Below, in pieces: positions 3,183 through 30,494 of a DNA stretch of 64,000 nt; positions within the stretch are counted from its first letter, which is position 1, and each line of letters begins with the position of its first letter. Source of the stretch: Natronococcus amylolyticus DSM 10524 (GTDB lineage: Archaea > Halobacteriota > Halobacteria > Halobacteriales > Natrialbaceae); NCBI RefSeq assembly GCF_000337675.1, contig NZ_AOIB01000013.1:192234-256233 (forward strand). Direction: 5' to 3'. The notes under the pieces are model-generated. The model saw only the letters and a program-made list of their open reading frames with translations. It made no database searches and had not been told where the DNA came from. The position numbers and the translations under genes were made by a program.

Positions 3183-4196
3183 ATGGACAGGATCACGCTG
3201 GGCAACGAGGAGTTCGAGGGACGGAACAACGCCTACGTCCTCGCCGACGGGGACGAGCTCGCGCTGGTCGACACCGGCGTCTCGACCGACGACATCCGGG
3301 CCGACCTTCGTGACGGGCTCGCCGAACGGGGCTACGAGTTCGCCGACGTCGACGACATCGTACTCACGCACTTCCACGTCGATCACGCGGGACTGGCGGG
3401 CGAGATTCAACGTGAGAGCGACGCGACGGTGTACGTCCACGAGGCCGACGCTCCCCTCGTCGAACAGGACGAAGAGGCCGTCGCCGCCCTCGAGGACCGC
3501 CGCGAGACGCTGCTCGAGGAGTGGGGGCTTCCCGAGGACGCCCGCGAAGAGCTGCTCGCGTTTCTCGACGGCTCGGTCCACATCGAGGGGCTGCCCGCGG
3601 AACCGACCCCCATCGAGGACGGAACCGTCCTCGAGGTCGGCGGGACGACCCTCGAGACGGTCCACGCGCCCGGCCACGCGGCGGGACTCTGCTGTTTCGA
3701 GATCGGTGACGCCGCGGGGACGGACCGCGCCGAAGAAGGGACTGACGGGGACTCGCGAACCGGCGGAGAGGCGTTCGTCGGCGACACCGTTCTCCCAGTC
3801 TACACCCCGAACGTCGGCGGTGCCGACGTTCGGGTCGAGCGTCCCCTCGAGCGCTACGCCGAGACGCTGCGGTCGTTTATCGATCGGGAGTACGACCGGG
3901 TCTGGCCGGGCCACCGCGACCCCATCGAGGAGCCCTCCGAGCGCGCGCAGACGATCCTCGACCACCACCGCGAGCGGACCGGAAACGTCCTCGACGTCCT
4001 CGAGGAACACGGCCCGGCCGACGCCTGGGCGGTCAGCGCCCACCTCTTTGGCGACCTCGAGGGGATCCACATCGTCCACGGCCCCGGCGAGGCCTACGCC
4101 CACCTCGATCACCTCCGCCACGAGGACGTCGTCGCGTACGACGACGGCGAGTACCGACTGCTCGAGCGGCCGACCGATCTCGAGTCGCTCGTCTAG
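3183..4196 (+). CDS. MBL-fold hydrolase with C-terminal winged helix (LACTB2-like)
   Basis: Zinc metallo-beta-lactamase-fold protein of 337 residues. The metal motif HFHVDH (His63, His65, Asp67, His68) follows a typical MBL N-terminus, with further ligands in the HAPGH segment and the VGDT strand. The C-terminal ~70 residues resemble the winged helix found in LACTB2-type proteins, some of which are nucleases; the substrate here is unknown. A short acidic insertion (AAGTDRAEEGTDGD) lies before the GDT motif. I chose the ATG at 3183 over an in-frame upstream start at 3129 because a TATA-like AAACTAATA lies about 25-30 bases before it. Confidence 0.85.
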   Translation: MDRITLGNEEFEGRNNAYVLADGDELALVDTGVSTDDIRADLRDGLAERGYEFADVDDIVLTHFHVDHAGLAGEIQRESDATVYVHEADAPLVEQDEEAVAALEDRRETLLEEWGLPEDAREELLAFLDGSVHIEGLPAEPTPIEDGTVLEVGGTTLETVHAPGHAAGLCCFEIGDAAGTDRAEEGTDGDSRTGGEAFVGDTVLPVYTPNVGGADVRVERPLERYAETLRSFIDREYDRVWPGHRDPIEEPSERAQTILDHHRERTGNVLDVLEEHGPADAWAVSAHLFGDLEGIHIVHGPGEAYAHLDHLRHEDVVAYDDGEYRLLERPTDLESLV

Positions 4197-4288
4197 CTCG
4201 TCGGTCCTCGGAGCGACGGCTCTCGCAACGGAATCGACCGTGCAGGGTCATGCTGAACCCCTTTTTGTTGTAGCGGTGATGGAAACGT

Positions 4289-5800
4289 ATGCCAATCCGT
4301 CCGCCGTCCGAGGACGACGTCCGGGAGCTGGGCGAGGAGCTGTTCCTCGACCTCACGCCGGGGGAAGTCGAGTTCTACCACGAGCAGCTCACCGACAACA
4401 TCGAGGAGTACGAGACGATCGAGTCGTACGATCCCGAGCCTCGCGGGCCGAGCACGCGAACCCGGCCCCGGAACTCGGGAACCCGACTCGACGACGACGA
4501 GAACCCGCACAACGGGTGGGTAACGAAGTGCGAGGTCAAGGGCGACGAGGAGGGGCCGCTGTCGGACTGGGAGGTCGCGATCAAGGACAACGTCGCGGTC
4601 GCCGGCGTCGAGATGACCTGCGGCTCGAACGTCGTCGAGGGGTACATCCCGAACGTCGACGCGACGGTCGTCAGCCGGCTGCTCGAGGCCGGGGCCGATA
4701 TTGTCGGGAAGACGAACATGGACGACATGGCCGTCACCCGGGTCGGTCACACCGCGTTCGGCCCGATCACGAACCCCCGCGACGACGACTACCTCGCGGG
4801 GGGCTCGAGCGGCGGCAGCGCGGTCGCCGTCGTCGAGGGCGAGGTCGACGCCGCAATCGGGAGCGACCAGGGCGGGAGCATCCGGATCCCCGCCTCGCTG
4901 TGTGGAATCGTCGGCCACAAGCCGACCTACGGACTGGTCCCCTACACCGGCTGCGTCGGCCTCGAGCATACGATCGACCACCCGGGGCCGATGACCCCCG
5001 ACGTCGAGACGGCCGCGGAGATGCTCACCGAAATCGCCGGTAGCAACGCGGCCCACCTCCGGCGACCGACGGACGTGCCGACCGAACGCTACCAGGACGC
5101 CCTCGACGGCGACGTCTCGGACCTTTCAGTGGGTGTTCTTGAGGAAGGGTTCGACAAACCCAACGGCGACCCTGGCGTCGACGAGCAGGTACGGGACGCG
5201 ATCGACCTGCTCGAGGAACGCGGCGCGACCGTCGAGGAGGTCTCGATTCCGCTACACGAGGACGCCGACACGATCCACACGATCTGTACGAACGAGGGGC
5301 TGGTCGCCGCGATGATGGGCCAGGGGATCGGCCACGGCTGGAAGGCCTGGTACAGCACCTCGTGGGTCGAGGCCTTCGGCAAGTTCCAGCGCGCGCAGGG
5401 CTATGATTTCCCGCCGAACCTCAAGCTCAAGCTGCTCCAGGGGCTGTACACCCTCAGTCGGTACCACTCCCGGTACTACGCGGCCGGAATGAACCTGATG
5501 CTCGAGCTGGCCGAACAGTACGACGCGGCCCTCGAGGAGTACGACGTCCTCGCGATGCCGACGACGGACGTGACCGCGCCCGAACACGACCCCGACCGGG
5601 ACGCGTTCGATCGGCTCCTCGAGACCGACGTCCCCGCCAACACCTCGCCGTTCAACCGCAGCGGCCACCCCGGAATCAGCGTCCCCGCGGGCGAGGTCGA
5701 CGGACTCCCGATCGGGTTGATGCTCGTCGGCGCGCGGTTCGACGACGCGACGGTACTCAACGCCGGCTACGCGGTCGAGCAGGCTCGTAGTGGAGGGTAG
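4289..5800 (+). CDS. Amidase-signature hydrolase
   Basis: 503-residue amidase-signature protein that hydrolyses an amide bond by a Ser-cisSer-Lys triad. The residues are visible: Lys99 in AIKDN, cis-Ser173 in GGSSGGS and nucleophile Ser197 in GGSIRIPA, with the 24-residue Ser-Ser spacing typical of the family. It is longer than GatA and has an N-terminal helical extension (residues 1-70) ahead of the catalytic core. It is therefore more likely a stand-alone amidase than the GatB partner, although gatB is nearby. Substrate cannot be inferred. A T-rich stretch (CTTTTTGTTG) lies just before the start and may serve as terminator of the upstream gene, promoter, or both. Confidence 0.88.
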   Translation: MPIRPPSEDDVRELGEELFLDLTPGEVEFYHEQLTDNIEEYETIESYDPEPRGPSTRTRPRNSGTRLDDDENPHNGWVTKCEVKGDEEGPLSDWEVAIKDNVAVAGVEMTCGSNVVEGYIPNVDATVVSRLLEAGADIVGKTNMDDMAVTRVGHTAFGPITNPRDDDYLAGGSSGGSAVAVVEGEVDAAIGSDQGGSIRIPASLCGIVGHKPTYGLVPYTGCVGLEHTIDHPGPMTPDVETAAEMLTEIAGSNAAHLRRPTDVPTERYQDALDGDVSDLSVGVLEEGFDKPNGDPGVDEQVRDAIDLLEERGATVEEVSIPLHEDADTIHTICTNEGLVAAMMGQGIGHGWKAWYSTSWVEAFGKFQRAQGYDFPPNLKLKLLQGLYTLSRYHSRYYAAGMNLMLELAEQYDAALEEYDVLAMPTTDVTAPEHDPDRDAFDRLLETDVPANTSPFNRSGHPGISVPAGEVDGLPIGLMLVGARFDDATVLNAGYAVEQARSGG

Positions 5801-5840
5801 CGTTCGACGAGAACGGGCGCCGTCGGCGAAACCGGAGCGC

Positions 5841-6545
5841 TCAGACCGACGACGTCAGCCCCCCGTCGACGCGGATGTTCTGCCCGGTAACGTAGCTCGA
5901 GGCGGGCGAGAGCAGGTACGCGACGGCGTCCGCGATCTCCGCGGTTTGTGCCGGTCGCCCCATCGGGATTCGGTCTCGAGTCTCCTCGTCGACGTCGTAG
6001 CTATCGACGAAGCCAGGCTGGACCGTGTTCATCCGGATCCCCGCCGCCGCGTACCGGTCGGCGTAGAGCTTGGTGAAGCTCCCGAGTCCGGCTCGAGCCA
6101 CCGACGAGACGGGGAACTCGAGCGACGGTTCGAACGCCGAGAACGTGGAGACGTTCACGATCGATCCGTGACCCCGTTCCTTCATGATGGGTGTGACGAG
6201 TCGGGCCATCCGAACGGTGTTCAACAGCGCGAGGTCCATCCCCTCGTACCACTCCTCGTCGGTGATCTCGAGGAGGTCGCCCGAGGGCGGGTGTCCCGTG
6301 TTGTTCACCACCGCGTCGATGCGCCCGTAGCGTTCGCGGGTCGTTTCGACGAGAGCGGCCAGATCGTCGGGGTCGGTCACTGACCCCTCGAACCCGTCCC
6401 CGCCGAGGTCGTTTGCGACCTCGACGGCGCTACCCGACGGCGACAGCAACACCGGCGTGTATCCCTCGTCGGTCAGTCGTCGGGCACACGCCTCTCCGAT
6501 TCCGCTTCCAGCTGCTGTCACTATCGCTGTCTTCTGCTCAGCCAT
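5841..6545 (-). CDS. SDR-family protein with an atypical active site
   Basis: Short-chain dehydrogenase/reductase fold, 234 residues, starting [10 protein letters not shown]. The nucleotide-binding motif TAAGSGIG (residues 10-17) and the NNTG strand motif are intact, and the C-terminus has the usual GQNIRVDGG segment. The catalytic YxxxK is absent: where family members read Y-x-x-x-K-A-G this protein reads S-S-V-A-R-A-G. It may therefore be a non-canonical SDR with altered chemistry or only a cofactor-binding role. It is convergent with the upstream amidase gene. The ATG at 6545 was preferred because the extension upstream of it lacks SDR character. Confidence 0.85.
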
Positions 6546-19768: not shown

Positions 19769-21148
19769 TCAGTCGTCGGCGACGGCATCGGTCGCGCCGT
19801 CGTCAGACCGGAACTCGCCGTCGGTGTACCGGTCGTCGTACAGCAGACAGGCGATCTCGTGGGTCTCGCCCGTCGGAACCTGATGGGGATCGTGGGTCTC
19901 GCAAGGCGACGTGAAGGTCTCCTCGAGTCGCTCCCGGGCGGCCTCGAACTCCGCGTCGTGAAGCGCGTCGAGACTCTCGTCGAGCGCGCGCTCGACCGTC
20001 GGGTCGGAAACGGTCTCGGGAATCTCGAACTCCTCGCGGACCGACCGATCGAACGCCTCGCGGGGGAGCTCGTTCGGGTCCGTCGCCTCCTCGTCGACCT
20101 CGTCGACTGCGGTGATCGCCTCGAGCTCCTCGGCGCCTCGAACCCGTAGCTTGAGATCGACGATCGAGCGCCAGACGTCCTGCGGGAGGTCGATCCCGTC
20201 GGGCGGGATGATCCGCGGACACCGGGTGTGGAACCGACAGCCCGACGGCGGGTTCATCGGCGACGGGACGGTTCCGGGGAGCAGGATCTGCTCGCCGTTC
20301 CAGAGCGGATCCGGCTCCGGGATCGCCGATAGCAGCGCCTCCGCGTAGGGGTGATGGGGCGGCGAGAACACCTCTTCGGTCGTCCCGACCTCCGCGAACT
20401 CGCCGAGGTACATCACCGCGATTCGATCCGAGATGTGCTCGACGACGCTCAGGTCGTGGGCGATGAAAATATACGAGAGGCCGAACTCCTCCTGGAGGTC
20501 CTCGAGCAGGTTGAGGATCTGTGCCTGTACCGAGACGTCGAGCGCCGAGACGGGTTCGTCACAGACGATGACCTCCGGGTCGACCGCCAGCGCCCGGGCG
20601 ATACCGATGCGCTGGCGCTGGCCGCCGGAGAACTCGTGGGGGTAGCGGTGGGCGTGGTTCTGGCTCAGTCCGACCGTCTCGAGCAGCTCGTAGATTCGCT
20701 CGGTTCGTGCCTCGCCCTCGGCGATGTCGTGGATATCCAGTGGCTCGCCGATGATGTCGCCGACCGTCAGCCGGGGATTCAGACTCGAGAACGGGTCCTG
20801 AAAGATGTACTGGACGTCGGTTCGCAGATCCCGCAGCTCCGAACTCGAGAGGCCGGTGAGTTCGACCTCCTCGCGGCGGCCGTTCTCGCCGACCCGCTGG
20901 CGATAGTAAACCGAACCGTCGGTCGGCTCGAGCAGACGAAGCAGCGACCGACCGAGGGTACTCTTCCCGCAGCCCGACTCGCCGACGACGCCCAGCGTCT
21001 CGCCCTCGTGAAGCTCGAGATCGATCCCGTCGACGGCCTTGACCCACTTCGTTCGGCCGAGCAGTCCGTCGATGAAGCCGCTGCTCGCGTCGTAGTACTT
21101 CGTCAGGCCCTCGGCCCACAGGATCGGCTCCCCGCTAGACCGGCTCAT
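19769..21148 (-). CDS. dppF: Oligopeptide/dipeptide ABC transporter ATP-binding protein (DppF-type)
   Basis: Second ATPase of the peptide importer, 459 residues. Walker [10 protein letters not shown], signature FSGGQRQR, Walker B VIVCDEP and the switch His ([10 protein letters not shown]) are intact. After the C-terminal oligopeptide segment ([10 protein letters not shown]) an acidic stretch of about 100 residues is inserted before the final [10 protein letters not shown] motif, which makes this protein longer than usual family members of about 330-350 residues. It overlaps the preceding gene by four bases. It is the last gene of the operon. Confidence 0.93.
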
Positions 21149-22230
21149 CGCCGATCACCCTCCGGATTCGGCGCGGTCGCGTCGGCGCGGGTGTCGTGTC
21201 CCTCTCGGATCTCGACCTCGTAGTCGAGTCCCTCCTGGAGCTCGCCGGTGTACTCGAGACACGCCGCCGCGCGCTCGGCGTCGGTTCCCGAGGCGTCCCG
21301 GCCCGTTTCCGGATTCAACAGCGGCGGTTCCCGCTTGGTACAGACGTCCTCGGCGTACGGACACCGGGGGTGGAAGCTACAGCCCGGCGGGAGCTCAACG
21401 AGGTCGGGCATCGTCCCCGGAATCGTCTGGAGGCGCTCGCGCCTGTCGCCGACGCGAGGGATCGAGCTCATCAGCCCGACCGTGTAGGGATGTTTCGGGT
21501 CGTAGTACAGCTCCTCGACGGGCGCCTTCTCGACGGGGCTGCCCGCGTACATCACCATCACTCGATCGCAGACCTCGGCGACGACGCCGAGGTCGTGGGT
21601 GATGAGCTGGATCGCCGTGTCGAACTCGTCGGCCAGGCTCTCGAGCTCCTCCAGGATCTGGGCCTCGATCGTCACGTCCAGAGCGGTCGTCGGCTCGTCA
21701 CAGAGCAACAGGTCGGGATCACAGGACAGCGCCATCGCGATCACCGCTCGCTGTTGCATCCCGCCGGAGAACTCGTGTGGGTAGTCGGAGTACCGCGACT
21801 CGGCCTCGGGGATCCCGACGGTGTCGAGCAGCTGGATCGTCCGTTCGCGAGCCTCTTCGTCGTCGTAGTCGAGATGGTGGCGGACCGCCTCGGCGATCTG
21901 CTCGCCGACGGTGTACACCGGGTTCAGGGCCGTCTGGGCGTCCTGGAAGATCATCGCGATCTCGTTGCCCCGGACGTCCCTGATCTCCTCCTCGCTCATC
22001 TCGAGTAAGTCCTCGCCCTTGAACAGGATCTCGCCGCTCTCGATGCGACCCGGGCTCTCGATGAGCCGCATCAGCGAGAGGGCGGTGACGCTTTTCCCGG
22101 CGCCGCTCTCGCCGACGACGCCGAACTTCTCGCCGCGCTCGATGCGATAGGAGAGGTCGTCGACGGCGGTGACGACGCCCTCCTGCGTGTAGAACTTGAC
22201 CGTGAGATCGTTGACCTCGAGTAGTGCCAT
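21145..22230 (-). CDS. dppD: Dipeptide/oligopeptide ABC transporter ATP-binding protein (DppD-type)
   Basis: First ATPase of the importer, 361 residues. Walker [10 protein letters not shown]-loop [11 protein letters not shown], signature EFSGGMQQR and Walker [13 protein letters not shown] are present, with the C-terminal cysteine motif [11 protein letters not shown] that can bind a metal centre in some family members. An in-frame GTG at 22239 would add MAK; the ATG at 22230 begins just after the upstream stop at 22232 and is preferred. It overlaps dppF by four bases. Confidence 0.94.
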
Positions 22231-22231
22231 C

Positions 22232-23281
22232 TTAGCCACCTCCCTGCCCTTCGATACCCGTCTCCTGGGCGTCGAAGGCGTCGTTGACCCCGTCGCCGAT
22301 CATGTTCATCGCCATCACGAACAGGAAGATCGCGCCGCCGGGGAAGACCGTGGCCCACCAGGGGATCGCGCCGCCGGGACCCTGGATGAGTGTCTCTCGC
22401 GTCTGGTCGAGCATCGTCCCCCACTCGGCGGTGCCGGGCGGCATGCCGAGCCCGAGGAACCCGAGCGCGGCGACGCCGATGACGACGGTGCCGATGTTGA
22501 GCGTCCCGTAGACGATCAGCGGCGGCATCGCGTTCGGGACGATGTGTTTGAAGATCACCGACCGATCGCGCGCACCTAACGCCTTCGCGGCCATAACGTA
22601 CTCGTTTTCCTTGATCGTCAGGACCTCGCCGCGTATCAGTCGGGCGTAGGTGATCCAGCCCGGGATCGCGAACGCAGCGACGAGCTGCCAGTAGCCGCCG
22701 CCGAGTGTGGCGACGATGATCAGCGCCAGGATGAGGCCGGGGAACGCGTAGACGGTGTCGACGATTCGCATCAGGATCTCGTCGGTCCAGCCGCCGTAGT
22801 AGCCCGAGATCGCCCCGTAAACCAGTCCGAAGGTGGCGCTGAGGCCGACGACGATGAAGCCGATCGAGATGCTGTACCGACCGCCGTACAGGACCCGCGA
22901 GAACAGGTCGCGGCCGTCGCCGTCGGTCCCCATCGGGTGGGAGAGCGTCGGCGAGTCGTAAGTTCCCGCCGACGACTCCGGGCTCATGTACATGATCGTC
23001 GTCGGATCGTAGGGGGCGATCGAGAACGGCTGGACCGTCATCCCCATCATCGTAATCGGACGGGCGAAAACCGCGAGCAGGGTGAGAACGGCGACGACGA
23101 ACAGCCCGATCAGCGCCGTCCGGTTGCGTTTGAACCGCTTCCAGGCCCGCTCGAACCGCCCCTCGGTCTCGCCGCCGCTCTCCTCGGTCCAGTCGGACAG
23201 CGAGTCGCGCTGTCGGACCCGCTCCGGATCGAAGCCGGTCACTCGAATTCGTCCGCGCTCGGTGTGTTGCTCGTTACTCAT
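22232..23281 (-). CDS. dppC: Dipeptide/oligopeptide ABC transporter permease (DppC-type)
   Basis: Inner-membrane permease of 349 residues. A soluble acidic N-terminus (about 50 residues) precedes the first helix (TALIGLFVVAVLTLLAVF), then a periplasm-like loop and the BPD transport core with the EAA loop around EYVMAAKALGARDRSVIFKHI. It ends with a Gln/Gly-rich tail. It overlaps the end of dppB by eight bases, consistent with coupled translation. Confidence 0.93.
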   Translation of the reverse strand: MSNEQHTERGRIRVTGFDPERVRQRDSLSDWTEESGGETEGRFERAWKRFKRNRTALIGLFVVAVLTLLAVFARPITMMGMTVQPFSIAPYDPTTIMYMSPESSAGTYDSPTLSHPMGTDGDGRDLFSRVLYGGRYSISIGFIVVGLSATFGLVYGAISGYYGGWTDEILMRIVDTVYAFPGLILALIIVATLGGGYWQLVAAFAIPGWITYARLIRGEVLTIKENEYVMAAKALGARDRSVIFKHIVPNAMPPLIVYGTLNIGTVVIGVAALGFLGLGMPPGTAEWGTMLDQTRETLIQGPGGAIPWWATVFPGGAIFLFVMAMNMIGDGVNDAFDAQETGIEGQGGG

Positions 23282-24230
23282 ATCTGATCCTCGGATCGAG
23301 AACCGCGTACAGGATGTCTGCGAGCAGATTCGCCAGGACGATGAACACGCCGGTAAACAGCGTGATCGCCATGATCAGGTTGATCTCGCGCTGGTTGATC
23401 GCGTCGATGAACTCGCGACCGAGCCCCGGCCAGTTGAACACCACCTCGACGACGACCGAGCCGGCGACGATACTCGCCGTCAGCGTCGCCGCGAGTGTCA
23501 CGACCGAGATCAGCGAGTTCCGCAGCACGTGTTTGAGGACGACCTGTCGCTCCGGAAGCCCCTTCGCTCGAGCCGCGGTCACGTACTCCTTGTTCAGCTC
23601 CTCGGCCATCGAGGTTCGCATCACGCGCATGATGCTCGCCGCCGCGGCGGTTCCGATCGTGATTCCGGGTAGGATCAGATAGAACAGCATCTGCGGGTGG
23701 TACAGCGGCAGGCGGGAGGGCGGCAACACGGTCCAGATCTCCAGCCAGAGCGCGCCGATCAGGATCAACATCAGGCCGAGCCAGAAGTTCGGGATCGAGA
23801 TCCCCGACAGCGCGACGAAGCGGCTGACGGTGTCGGCGAGCTGGTCTTTCTTGATGGCCGCGTAGATCCCGGTCGGGATCGCGATCAGGAGACCGAACAG
23901 CCAGCCGAACAGGCCGAGCGCGATCGTCTCGGGGAGTCGCGCGATAATAACCGAGGAGACGTCCTGGCCGGAGCTGACAACCTCGCCGAAGTCCCCGGTC
24001 AGGACGTTCCCCATCCAGGTCAGGTACTGCTCCCAAATCGGGCCATCGAGCCCGTATCGGGCGCGCATCTGGGCCTCGTCGGCCGCCGTCATATGGGGAT
24101 TGGTTGCGGCCATCTGGCTGATCGGATCACCCGGCGTGAGATGCACCAGCGCGAAGGTGATCACCGAGACGCCGAACAGAATCGGAACGATCGACAACAG
24201 TCGCTTCAGTATGAAACGTCGTAAACTCAT
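23274..24230 (-). CDS. dppB: Dipeptide/oligopeptide ABC transporter permease (DppB-type)
   Basis: Permease of 318 residues starting MSLRRFILKRLLSIVPILFG, the characteristic DppB N-terminus. Six helices are predicted; the conserved LTPGDPI motif and the EAA loop (YVTAARAKGLPERQVVLKHVLRN) are present. It pairs with DppC to form the translocation path. It starts 39 bases downstream of the substrate-binding protein gene. Confidence 0.93.
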   Translation of the reverse strand: MSLRRFILKRLLSIVPILFGVSVITFALVHLTPGDPISQMAATNPHMTAADEAQMRARYGLDGPIWEQYLTWMGNVLTGDFGEVVSSGQDVSSVIIARLPETIALGLFGWLFGLLIAIPTGIYAAIKKDQLADTVSRFVALSGISIPNFWLGLMLILIGALWLEIWTVLPPSRLPLYHPQMLFYLILPGITIGTAAAASIMRVMRTSMAEELNKEYVTAARAKGLPERQVVLKHVLRNSLISVVTLAATLTASIVAGSVVVEVVFNWPGLGREFIDAINQREINLIMAITLFTGVFIVLANLLADILYAVLDPRIRYE

Positions 24231-24269: not shown

Positions 24270-26207
24270 TCACTCGAGGTCGTGGTCTTCTATCACTTCT
24301 TCGATGAGCTCCGCGGCCGCCTCGGGGTCGTACTCGTTCGTCGGCCGGATGGTCTCCTCGAGGGCCTCGGCGTCGGTCGTGCCGTTCTCCTCGGCGAGCT
24401 CCGGCAGGTCGGTCCAGGCCGGACGCGCCCAGCCGTTGAGCACGTTGTCGACGATCTCCTGGCGCGGAACGAGGTGGTTGACGGCCCGACGGAGACGGTC
24501 GTCGTCCCACGGCTCGACGTTCATCGGATACTGGATGTACTCGTACCCCCCGGCCTCGACGCTGTCGATGACGTAGTCGTCGTCCTCCTCGAAGTCGTCG
24601 AGGACGTCCGTCGCGAGCCCGTAGGTCATATCGATCTCGTCGCTCTGGAGCGCCCCCGCGCGACTCGAGTCGTCGGGAACGATCTCCATCTCGAGTTCGT
24701 CGATGACGGGGCCGTCCGGGAACTCCTCGGGGCCGTCGAACCACTCCTTGTTCTCGAGACCGATTTCCTCGAGCCAGTACCCGTCGTTCTTGGTGAACTC
24801 GACGTACTGCCCCTCGGAGTAGTCGCTGAGTTCGTAGGGGCCGGTCCCGATCGGGTCGTTGTCGGCGCTGGGGTCGAGTTCGCCGCCCTCGAGTTCGGCC
24901 TGCTCGAGCGAGTGGATGTACAGCCCCGGCAGCTCGCGTTCGGCCTCGGCGTCGGGGATCTGGGCGTAGAGGTTGACGGTGTACTCGTCGACCTCCTCGG
25001 CGTACAGCAGCGAGTCGTAGGTCTGGGCCTCCAGATCGGAGTTCTCGTAGCGCCGGGCCGTCGCGACGACGTGCTCGGCGGTCAGCTCCTCGCCGTTGGT
25101 AAACTCGATTCCCTCGTGGAGTTCGTACTGGAACTGCATCCCGAAGACGCCGTCCTCGACGGCCTCGCCGGCCTCCTCTGGGGTGAGTACGCGTACCGTG
25201 TCGTCCTCGGCCGGGTTGTCATCGGGGTGAGTGACGACGACCTGCTCGTCGGTGTCGAGGACGCCCTCCTCGTCGGCGTCGACCTCGATCATGTACTCCT
25301 CGTAGTCGGTCCGGTCGATGTCCTGGGTCTCGACGAGCTCGTAGTCCTCGGCGAGCCACGGGTAGAGATTCCCCTCGGTGTCGCTTGCGACCAGCTGTTC
25401 GAAGATCAGCACCTGGACGAGCGTCGAGGGCGCACCCGTCGTGTACGGCGGATCGAACAGTTCGGGATCCTCGGTGAGTCCGGCCCGAAGGGTGCCTCCC
25501 TCCTCGAGGTCCGAGATGTCCGTTTCGTCGGGATGGGCGTCCTCGTCGATCCAGGTGACGACCTCGTCCTGTGGGGCGTGGAGCCCGTAGCTGAACGTGC
25601 TCTCGGTGAACGGGTTCTGTCTGAATCCGTGAACGTTTGTGTTCATCACGCCGGCCTGCAGATCGAAGTGCGTGATCGAGCTGTAGCGCTCGTCGGCGAG
25701 GTACTCCCAGATCTCGTCGTAGCGCTCGCGTCGTTCCTCGTCGTCGTCCGCGACGTCGACGCCGTAACGGGCGTCGTCCATCATCTGGTCGAGCTCGTCG
25801 TCGCTGATCCCGTTTAAGTTACAGCACTGGCCGATGTTGTCGCTGTGGTGAAGCGCCTGACAGAAACTTTCGGGGTTGAACGTGCCCGAGAGCCCGATAC
25901 AGGGGACGTACCCGTTCTCGGCGTACTCGGGGTCCATGACGCGCTGGGAGTAGTCGTTGAACTCGTAGGTGTCAATCTCAGTCGTGAAGTAGCCCGACTC
26001 CTCTAGGGAGGTCGCGATCAGGTCGACCATCTGGACCCGGTCGTCGTTGTCGGAGTTGACCTCCAGCTGAACGTGAATCGGCGCGTCGTCGTCGCCGTCG
26101 TCTCCACCAAGACAGCCGGCGACTGCCGCGATACTTACCCCACCAGCACCCTGCAGTAATCGCCGTCTATCGATATCGATTGAGGATTGCTTGTGATCCT
26201 GCACCAT
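24270..26207 (-). CDS. dppA: Peptide ABC transporter substrate-binding lipoprotein with permuted domain order
   Basis: Family 5 extracellular solute-binding protein, 645 residues, exported by the Tat system (DRRRLLQGAGG) and probably lipid-anchored at Cys32 (lipobox VAGC). The domain order is unusual. Residues about 43-220 (DLIATSLEESGYF ... ALHHSDN ... SDDELDQMMDDARYG ... ERYDEIWEYLADE) match the part that normally ends such proteins, while the normal opening strand (GGTLRAGLTEDPELFDPPY) appears only at residue 237. The protein then stops at DPEAAAELIEEVIEDHD, where a usual family member would continue into the first block. It is the first gene of the operon with an AT-rich promoter. The fold is clear; the permutation is my reading. 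Confidence 0.88.
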   Translation of the reverse strand: MVQDHKQSSIDIDRRRLLQGAGGVSIAAVAGCLGGDDGDDDAPIHVQLEVNSDNDDRVQMVDLIATSLEESGYFTTEIDTYEFNDYSQRVMDPEYAENGYVPCIGLSGTFNPESFCQALHHSDNIGQCCNLNGISDDELDQMMDDARYGVDVADDDEERRERYDEIWEYLADERYSSITHFDLQAGVMNTNVHGFRQNPFTESTFSYGLHAPQDEVVTWIDEDAHPDETDISDLEEGGTLRAGLTEDPELFDPPYTTGAPSTLVQVLIFEQLVASDTEGNLYPWLAEDYELVETQDIDRTDYEEYMIEVDADEEGVLDTDEQVVVTHPDDNPAEDDTVRVLTPEEAGEAVEDGVFGMQFQYELHEGIEFTNGEELTAEHVVATARRYENSDLEAQTYDSLLYAEEVDEYTVNLYAQIPDAEAERELPGLYIHSLEQAELEGGELDPSADNDPIGTGPYELSDYSEGQYVEFTKNDGYWLEEIGLENKEWFDGPEEFPDGPVIDELEMEIVPDDSSRAGALQSDEIDMTYGLATDVLDDFEEDDDYVIDSVEAGGYEYIQYPMNVEPWDDDRLRRAVNHLVPRQEIVDNVLNGWARPAWTDLPELAEENGTTDAEALEETIRPTNEYDPEAAAELIEEVIEDHDLE

Positions 26208-28379: not shown

Positions 28380-30494
28380 CTACGGGTCGATCCGTTCCCG
28401 TCCGTGCGCCGAGAGGGGGTTCGCGACCTCGCTGGTCACGTACTCGTGGCGCTTGCCGCGCAGACGCATCGCGGTCAGAGCCTTGTGGGTCGTCGACGCG
28501 GCGAACAGCGCCCGCTCGTCGCGCTCGAGGCGGTCCTCGGGAACCCTCCCCTCGGCCCGGATCGCGTCAAACGCGCGCTCACAGCGCTCGGCGAGCAGCT
28601 CCCAGCAGTTCCGCTCGTCGATCGCGAACTCGTCGGCGACCGTCGCGACCAGTTCGGCGAGGTGGTTCTGGAACAGCGCGTAGTGCAGCTTCCGGTAGCA
28701 GTCCGCGGCGTCGTCGGCCTCGAGGTCCGAATCGGGGTAGGGCTCGAGCGAGAGACCGCGTTCGGCGAGCCGATCTCGGTGGACACGAATGCCGCCCAGA
28801 TCGCGAACCAGCGTTGCGACCGGTTCGGCGTCCTCGAAGACGATCAGGCTGTTCTGGAGGTGGCTCTCGAGGGCTACCCCGTACTCGCTCAGCAGGGCCA
28901 GCTGCTCGGGGACGACGACGTCGGCGTAGCGCTCGAGGAACGACAGCGCCGCCTCGCGGGTCGTCGGCGCCCCCGTTCGGTCGCCGTAGCGCTCGATCAC
29001 CCTGCAGACGAGCGGGCGCCCGGTCGTCGGGGCGTCGGCGACCAGACTCGAGGCGACCACCGGAACCCCGTCCTTGGGAACAAGCGGGTGCGAAGCGGGG
29101 TTCTGCCGTAACAGTCCCGAGAGATGTCTCGCGTCGTCGAACGCCTCCCCCTCTGGGTGGGGACCGCCCGGCGGGTAGTAACAGGCCGCGGCCGGCTCGG
29201 CGAGTAGTCCCAGTTGCTCGAGGTCCTCCCGCTGCTCGATCGCCCGGACGACGTCGGTCACCTGCGGCCCGTTCGAGACGGCGTGGGGCGAAAGCGTGCG
29301 AACGACGTTGGTTGTCTGGACCGGAATCGCGAGCTTGAGGTGGGGAAGCGGCCCCTCGGCGGTGCGGTTGGTGGCGTAGGGAACGACCGTCCGGAGGTTG
29401 AGCTGAGGCGTCGCCGGCGTCGTATAGTCGGGGATCGGAACGACCCGTCCGTCCTCGATCCCGTCCGCGTACCGCTCCGGGACCGTCCGGTGGTACTGCA
29501 GCGGGTGAACGGGGACGACGGCGTACTCCTCGCTCGCACGATCTGCAGGGATCGCCCGCTCGAGGGCGCCCTCGAGACCCTCGAACGTCGTGTACAGGCG
29601 ATCAGTTAGCTGCCCGTCTTCGATCGCTTCCGCTCGCGTCTCGAGGGCGTACTCCCGGTCGACGGCGACGAACCGGAGATCGATTCGGTCAGTGAACTCG
29701 GGCGCGTACGCGAGGCCGTCGGCGGCGTTCATACCACGGCGTATCTTCCCGGAAGGGTGGAACGGGTGGCCGTCCGTGACGATTCGCTCGAAGGCTGTCG
29801 CCGGATCCGCGGCCGGAACGCCGCTCGCGACGGCCTCGAGGATCGATCCGTCCGCGTCGGCGGCCGTCTCGACGTCTCGCGCGTGGACTGGCCTCGCCAG
29901 CCGCGCCAGCGCGAGGTTGGCGACGCTCTCGGCGACCTCGAGGCGGATCCGCTCGGCCTGCTCGCCGTCGCTGAACGCGCCCTCGCGCTCGAGGAGCGGA
30001 ACGAGGTCGACCGGGTGCTCGAGCTCCCGGCTCGCGCCGTCGCGTCCCGCCAGCTCGGGCGACCAGCGACGCATCGGTCCGGAAAACCGAAAGCGGTCGT
30101 AGCCGTGTCTCGCCGCGATCGGCGCCACGAGCACCGTCTCGGAGGCCGAAAACGGCAGCAGCGCGAGCCGATGACACCGCTCGGATAGCGGATCGACGAG
30201 CGACCGGAGTTCGTCGGCTCCGAGGCCCTCGAGCGGAGTCGGTTCGTCCGGAACGGTTGGATCTGCCGGCTCGACGAACCTGGCGTCCGGAACGCCCGCT
30301 GGTCGCCCGCGGAGCAGCCCCCGAACGAAGCGGCGGAGAATCTCCCGGCGAGCGACGGGGAGCGCCTCGAGATACGCCGCCTCGGCCGGAGTTCCCAGTC
30401 CGTTCGCTCGCGCGTAGCTGGTGGCCGCACCGAGCGTTTCACGTTCGGCGCTCGTTCGGAGCCGGACCGACTCGCCGTCGACTCGGTTGCTCAT
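28380..30494 (-). CDS. NIS siderophore synthetase (IucA/IucC family)
   Basis: 704-residue NRPS-independent siderophore synthetase that joins a carboxylate (citrate-type) to an amine or hydroxylamine using ATP. Family motifs include GHPFHPSGKIRRGM for the nucleotide-binding region, VPVHPLQY, LESHLQNSL and RDLGG, ending with the FhuF-like C-terminal helical part. The usual partners (lysine/ornithine monooxygenase, acyltransferase, decarboxylase, transporter) are not adjacent, so it may cooperate with genes elsewhere or be a solitary remnant. No truncation is visible. Confidence 0.9.
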   Translation of the reverse strand: MSNRVDGESVRLRTSAERETLGAATSYARANGLGTPAEAAYLEALPVARREILRRFVRGLLRGRPAGVPDARFVEPADPTVPDEPTPLEGLGADELRSLVDPLSERCHRLALLPFSASETVLVAPIAARHGYDRFRFSGPMRRWSPELAGRDGASRELEHPVDLVPLLEREGAFSDGEQAERIRLEVAESVANLALARLARPVHARDVETAADADGSILEAVASGVPAADPATAFERIVTDGHPFHPSGKIRRGMNAADGLAYAPEFTDRIDLRFVAVDREYALETRAEAIEDGQLTDRLYTTFEGLEGALERAIPADRASEEYAVVPVHPLQYHRTVPERYADGIEDGRVVPIPDYTTPATPQLNLRTVVPYATNRTAEGPLPHLKLAIPVQTTNVVRTLSPHAVSNGPQVTDVVRAIEQREDLEQLGLLAEPAAACYYPPGGPHPEGEAFDDARHLSGLLRQNPASHPLVPKDGVPVVASSLVADAPTTGRPLVCRVIERYGDRTGAPTTREAALSFLERYADVVVPEQLALLSEYGVALESHLQNSLIVFEDAEPVATLVRDLGGIRVHRDRLAERGLSLEPYPDSDLEADDAADCYRKLHYALFQNHLAELVATVADEFAIDERNCWELLAERCERAFDAIRAEGRVPEDRLERDERALFAASTTHKALTAMRLRGKRHEYVTSEVANPLSAHGRERIDP

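Follow-up and report, generated by a model that had tools for sequence, protein, structure and literature searches.

Organization of the locus

The window, by which we mean the whole stretch of 64,000 nucleotides from Natronococcus amylolyticus DSM 10524 that was analysed, carries an operon headed by a gene for a family 5 solute-binding protein (SBP) whose two sequence blocks stand in swapped order. The features are as follows.

24270..26207, minus strand: circularly permuted family 5 solute-binding protein, 645 aa (phmmer against PDB, Pfam, re-rotated alignment)
26112..26207, minus strand: Tat-type signal and lipobox, residues 1-32, with Cys32 (sequence DRRRLLQG...AVAGC)
25542..26084, minus strand: block B, the canonical C-terminal part, now first, residues ~42-222 (phmmer to the C-terminal parts of 3m8u and 1xoc; PF00496 277-339, weak; alignment with canonical orthologues)
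25500..25541, minus strand: new linker between the old C- and N-termini, residues ~223-236, of PDETDISDLEEGG type (comparison with the C-terminal tails and N-terminal spacers of canonical orthologues)
24273..25499, minus strand: block A, the canonical N-terminal and middle part, now last, residues ~237-645 (PF00496 16-275 on residues 356-637)
23274..24230, minus strand: permease 1, DppB type (BPD_transp_1, E 2e-40; syntenic)
22232..23281, minus strand: permease 2, DppC type (BPD_transp_1 and OppC_N; syntenic)
21145..22239, minus strand: ATPase 1, DppD type (ABC_tran and oligo_HPY)
19769..21148, minus strand: ATPase 2, DppF type (ABC_tran and oligo_HPY)

An export signal, two BPD_transp_1 genes and two ABC_tran/oligo_HPY genes are thus all present for this SBP. 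Elsewhere in the window, a 704-aa ORF on the minus strand (28380-30494) reads like an IucA/IucC siderophore synthetase, an impression gained from sequence reading only.

Homology of the two blocks

When the protein was searched against PDB with phmmer as encoded, the chains 3m8u, 1xoc and 5u4o each matched query 235-598 with their first and middle part and query 40-210 with their last part, and every solved family 5 protein gave two or three disjoint matches. After rotation at the junction, the sequence aligned to 3m8u as one piece (115-506) with 80.9 bits, as compared to two pieces of 35 and 24 bits (total given as 63.5) in the encoded order. Pfam PF00496, for which the protein scores 176.6 bits against a gathering score of 32.4, matched residues 356-637 at profile positions 16-275 (E 1e-51), while residues 31-95 matched the next stretch of the profile, 277-339, only weakly (E 0.048, below cut-off); N-terminal fragments of relatives gave E values of 1e-10 (profile 279-366) and 9e-5 (272-365). 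The linear order of PF00496 is not kept, since profile 277-339 comes before 16-275. Such a profile-like order is typical of SBP_bac_5 (cluster C) members and inessential to homology; homology over the whole length to solved members was obtained only with the rotated sequence. The ORF at 24270-26207 on the minus strand therefore encodes an SBP_bac_5, cluster C binding protein with swapped block order.

The initial annotation, made from the sequence alone, had described a 645-residue ORF at these positions with a Tat lipoprotein signal, a C-terminal-like stretch at residues ~43-220 and the N-terminal opening at residue 237. All of this held, phmmer and Pfam placing the blocks at ~42-222 and ~237-645, and the Pfam comparison of the two parts apart that it had suggested gave the swapped profile order, with the weak N-terminal match noted above (E 0.048). 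An AlphaFold model of the protein reached a pLDDT of 40.6 and a pTM of 0.27, from an alignment of only 9 rows (the window protein and L037-L042), a confidence too low for the model to bear on the bilobed three-domain fold that closes on a ligand in this family.

The cut and the linker

In canonical orthologues the helix-strand junction reads ...LLEEVVDDLGLD-TPIEIQLEVN.... Block A of the window protein ends after the helix EYDPEAAAELIEEVIEDHDLE, its C-terminus being ...LIEEVIEDHDLE, and the mature N-terminus has APIHVQLEVN. The helix-to-strand loop was thus severed without loss (...EDHDLE / API...), essentially no residue being missing. That the protein ends where its first block would normally continue had been claimed before and is here refined: the continuation is the C-terminal block itself.

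At the other junction, ...VTWIDE-DAHPDETDISDL-EEGGTLR connects the old ends. This linker starts with a piece that resembles the canonical C-terminal tail and finishes with one that resembles the final part of the mature spacer at the N-terminus of canonical proteins, e.g., REEVDFADLQEGGTLR, as would be expected from the fusion of two tandem copies with loss of the second signal.

Permuted and canonical orthologues at the head of one operon type

Among 392 genomes sampled from the window's order, 32 (~32 haloarchaeal species) carried a full-length permuted homologue of the window's own group, hereafter group 1; in most of the other matching genomes the A block came first. The permuted order was found at full length in other species at identities from 95% down to ~54%. 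The initial annotation had proposed looking for the order in orthologues, and its view of a single case missed this recurrence and wide spread. An assembly error, or the merging of two adjacent genes, could account for a lone odd gene model. The order recurs, however, in independent assemblies, including the isolates Natronococcus A-GB1/A-GB7 and Halobiforma nitratireducens, other single-contig genomes and MAGs, so chance and misassembly are for practical purposes excluded; the conserved linker also speaks against an assembly error.

Both permuted and canonical group 1 genes head operons of the order SBP-permease-permease-ATPase-ATPase (SBP-B-C-D-F), and most of the remaining proteins in these operons share 65-97% identity with those of the window. 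Canonical orthologues heading the same operon reach identities of 69% (A) and 61% (B). A tree of 55 rotated group 1 SBP sequences requires at least 3 changes of order (bootstrap range 3-4). AU tests rejected the arrangement in which all permuted group 1 rows are held together (p=1.6e-33) as well as a clade of the permuted rows and the lone canonical row L104 (p 0.001). Three SBP trees, of block A, of block B and of both jointly (100/99 in the joint one), make the canonical L104 of genome G212 sister to the permuted L047 of genome G169, and these two genomes also pair in the tree of the permeases and ATPases (100/100).

Alternatively, block B might derive from another binding-protein gene through domain fusion rather than from permutation of the same gene, a possibility that was raised for TpMglB-2 by its authors (PMC4990184). 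Against this, the B blocks sit among those of canonical orthologues, the A and B trees give the same G212/G169 pair and the identities of the two blocks are comparable (A 69%, B 61%); we consider a foreign block B very improbable.

The direction of the changes within group 1 is unresolved. Parsimony permits a single permutation with two or more later returns to the canonical order (1 gain and 2 losses), and the linker motif, shared across the permuted clades, favours this course. Against reversion, a nested canonical clade has the same 8-residue helix-strand loop as the basal canonical proteins, which looks like retention; this conserved length favours retention there together with several gains. 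We therefore lean slightly against the reversion scenario as a whole, while allowing that some of the changes of order might be reversions and not new gains.

Further permuted groups and possible fusion intermediates

Two further groups of permuted proteins were found. Group 2 (~33 genomes, mostly of the window's family; ~560 aa) has a cut site that precedes the helix, as compared to after the helix in group 1, so that its N-terminus starts with that helix. In group 3 and its relatives, which are spread across haloarchaea, the cut follows the helix plus a short hairpin. Alphaproteobacteria (Nitratireductor, Roseomonas, Ketogulonicigenium, Microvirga and Maritalea) have proteins of this type as well; their order was checked with block profiles. 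Among the best 60 PDB matches of a group 3 protein, none was colinear with the permuted order.

AU tests rejected groups 1 and 2 (p 3e-6) and groups 2 and 3 (p 4e-50) as single clades; these tests used 33 rows with a simple model and long branches. A quick tree of 72 rows requires a minimum of 9 order changes, 6 of them forced by starred branches. If a single ancient permutation lay behind every permuted protein, the tree would have to misplace the canonical relatives; such a scenario could draw support from the similar linker motif of group 1 and from the position of the cuts, all of which lie within ~30 residues of each other. It is opposed by the AU rejections, both inside group 1 and among the three groups, by the different cut site of group 2 and by the agreement of the operon tree on the G212/G169 pair, and we regard it as hardly tenable. 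With high confidence, then, the three groups were permuted separately.

In the window's own genome, 4 of the 7 SBP_bac_5 genes are permuted. Of ~145 profile matches listed for 19 genomes, 53 end within positions 270-302, the order not having been confirmed for each. In-frame tandem A-B-A-B fusions with a single signal exist in two archaea: L183 at 3309-6390 on the plus strand (G479; 1026 aa) and L238 on the minus strand (G039). These belong to the same family as the window protein and have the form expected of an intermediate; unlike the window protein, they are untruncated. They are not close relatives of group 1. The earlier claim of a tandem fusion with truncation at both ends is supported by these existing fusions and by the makeup of the linker.

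Several single loci may be recorded here. On contig C25 of the window's genome, two permuted binding-protein genes lie adjacent in tandem (L216, 1254-5710, plus strand). Outside the window's order, a permuted binding protein on the minus strand (L182, G557) combines a Sec-like signal with a PGF-type membrane anchor at its C-terminus (TPGFGVIAVIAGVMAATYLLRRRR), and would be anchored from the opposite end. One group 2 gene (G247:C5:155017-156583) extends over two reading frames (query 12-203 and 220-544) and is probably frameshifted or a broken copy.

Proposed origin and mechanism

We propose, with a probability of roughly 0.86, that the product of the window gene is a working cluster C solute-binding lipoprotein, circularly permuted by nature, for the Dpp/Opp-type importer encoded next to it, and that the gene arose via duplication, fusion and truncation, a course repeated in the family; the fold, closing, anchoring geometry and cargo uptake are inferred. 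Tandem gene copies would have fused in frame to give signal-A-B-A-B, and once the leading A and the final B were lost, signal-B-linker-A would have remained. Such a rearrangement would have occurred several times within family 5. The linker would then bridge the two old ends, which both belong to domain I, and the new ends would sit on a surface loop that is part of domain III (lobe 2). Both hinge strands being intact, folding and closing like those of canonical orthologues would be expected, with the lipid anchor moved from lobe 1 to lobe 2.

The placement of the cut rests on homology. For AliD, which belongs to cluster C, domain III has been placed at 297-582, and domain I contains both termini (29-63 and 583-617) (PMC11192437). 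The cut maps near residue 343-358 of 3m8u/1xoc and therefore, by homology, falls inside domain III, so that both lobe-crossing strands would be kept. Normal closing with the anchor on lobe 2 is inferred in the same way, without a structure, and the altered hinge motion suggested by the initial annotation is not favoured.

Whether permuted or canonical, almost every haloarchaeal row is a lipoprotein, and permutation might be thought to serve lipid anchoring. As a general reason this is ruled out, because the signals of the alphaproteobacterial permuted proteins inspected (Nitratireductor and Ketogulonicigenium) lack a lipobox.

Relation to known systems

Canonical cluster C proteins such as DppA, AppA, HbpA and NikA are homologous to the window protein over the whole length once it is rotated, and their systems have the same operon type, with two permeases and two oligo_HPY ATPases. 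The window protein differs from them in its swapped blocks, its linked old ends and an N-terminal anchor inferred to sit on domain III.

A described permuted family 5 binding protein, of which the initial annotation was likewise unaware, was not found in the open-access full text searched; the only precedent found in that literature is TpMglB-2 (Tp0684, ‘Cluster Bc’), a naturally permuted, membrane-tethered ABC binding protein for which a crystal structure, glucose binding and closing have been shown (PMC4990184). Natural circular permutation is common to both. TpMglB-2, however, has the cluster B sugar-binding fold, whereas the PDB and Pfam matches of the window protein are all to family 5. 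Its permutation adds a hinge crossing (PMC4990184), while the window protein is inferred to keep both lobe-crossing strands, and its type is described as one group from spirochaetes and Gram-positives (PMC4990184), without the recurrence within one operon seen in family 5.

A circular permutation in nature is as a rule a single, old event that is difficult to date. What is unusual here is that the permutation recurs among orthologous operons. In several instances, close orthologues with 60-70% identity occupy the same operon and differ chiefly by chain order, and fusion intermediates are extant. This offers a natural experiment on how permutation arises and on its effects on folding, export, membrane anchoring and Venus-flytrap closing. 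A bolder reading, which we could as readily doubt as believe, is that chain order in family 5 is labile and has switched repeatedly in the same operon slot, perhaps in both directions, via tandem fusions, with ~1/3 of the haloarchaeal family permuted. For annotation, the practical consequence is that in haloarchaea a sizeable fraction of family 5 proteins is truncated by linear profiles at a single position (profile ~275-288).

Function and possible cargo

Rearranged genes are often dead, and the window gene might be degenerating and non-functional. Against this, its frame is open and includes a signal, the gene is conserved across haloarchaeal families, the operon is intact and dN/dS against close orthologues is 0.11-0.13 overall. 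The gene is under purifying selection, and a non-functional copy is most unlikely. The initial annotation had called the protein probably functional from its intact transporter genes, a claim that the selection and the operon support, function itself being inferred. The protein is probably the working lipoprotein receptor of a Dpp/Opp-type importer; expression, binding, transport and substrate are inferred.

With regard to cargo, the window protein does not meet the equivalog for the dipeptide-binding DppA (NCBIfam NF043070), scoring 43.7 bits against a cut-off of 1005 bits. In DppA, D408 is the Asp that grips the amino end of the peptide (PMC8566422). Its equivalent is seemingly replaced in group 1 proteins of both orders (GLSGT-FNP as compared to GWSGDNGDP in 3m8u), and their cargo may therefore differ from ordinary dipeptides, a tentative inference from sequence without binding data. 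The permuted operons of group 3 (flanks of L233, L235 and L237) adjoin genes for M28 peptidase, hydantoinase/oxoprolinase or creatininase, neighbours that might hint at amide- or peptide-like cargo. At L111 (3946-17900, G175), two operons face each other ~11 kb apart, a permuted SBP-B-C one and a canonical SBP-B-C-D-F one; seemingly without ATPases of its own, the permuted operon may share those of the canonical one.
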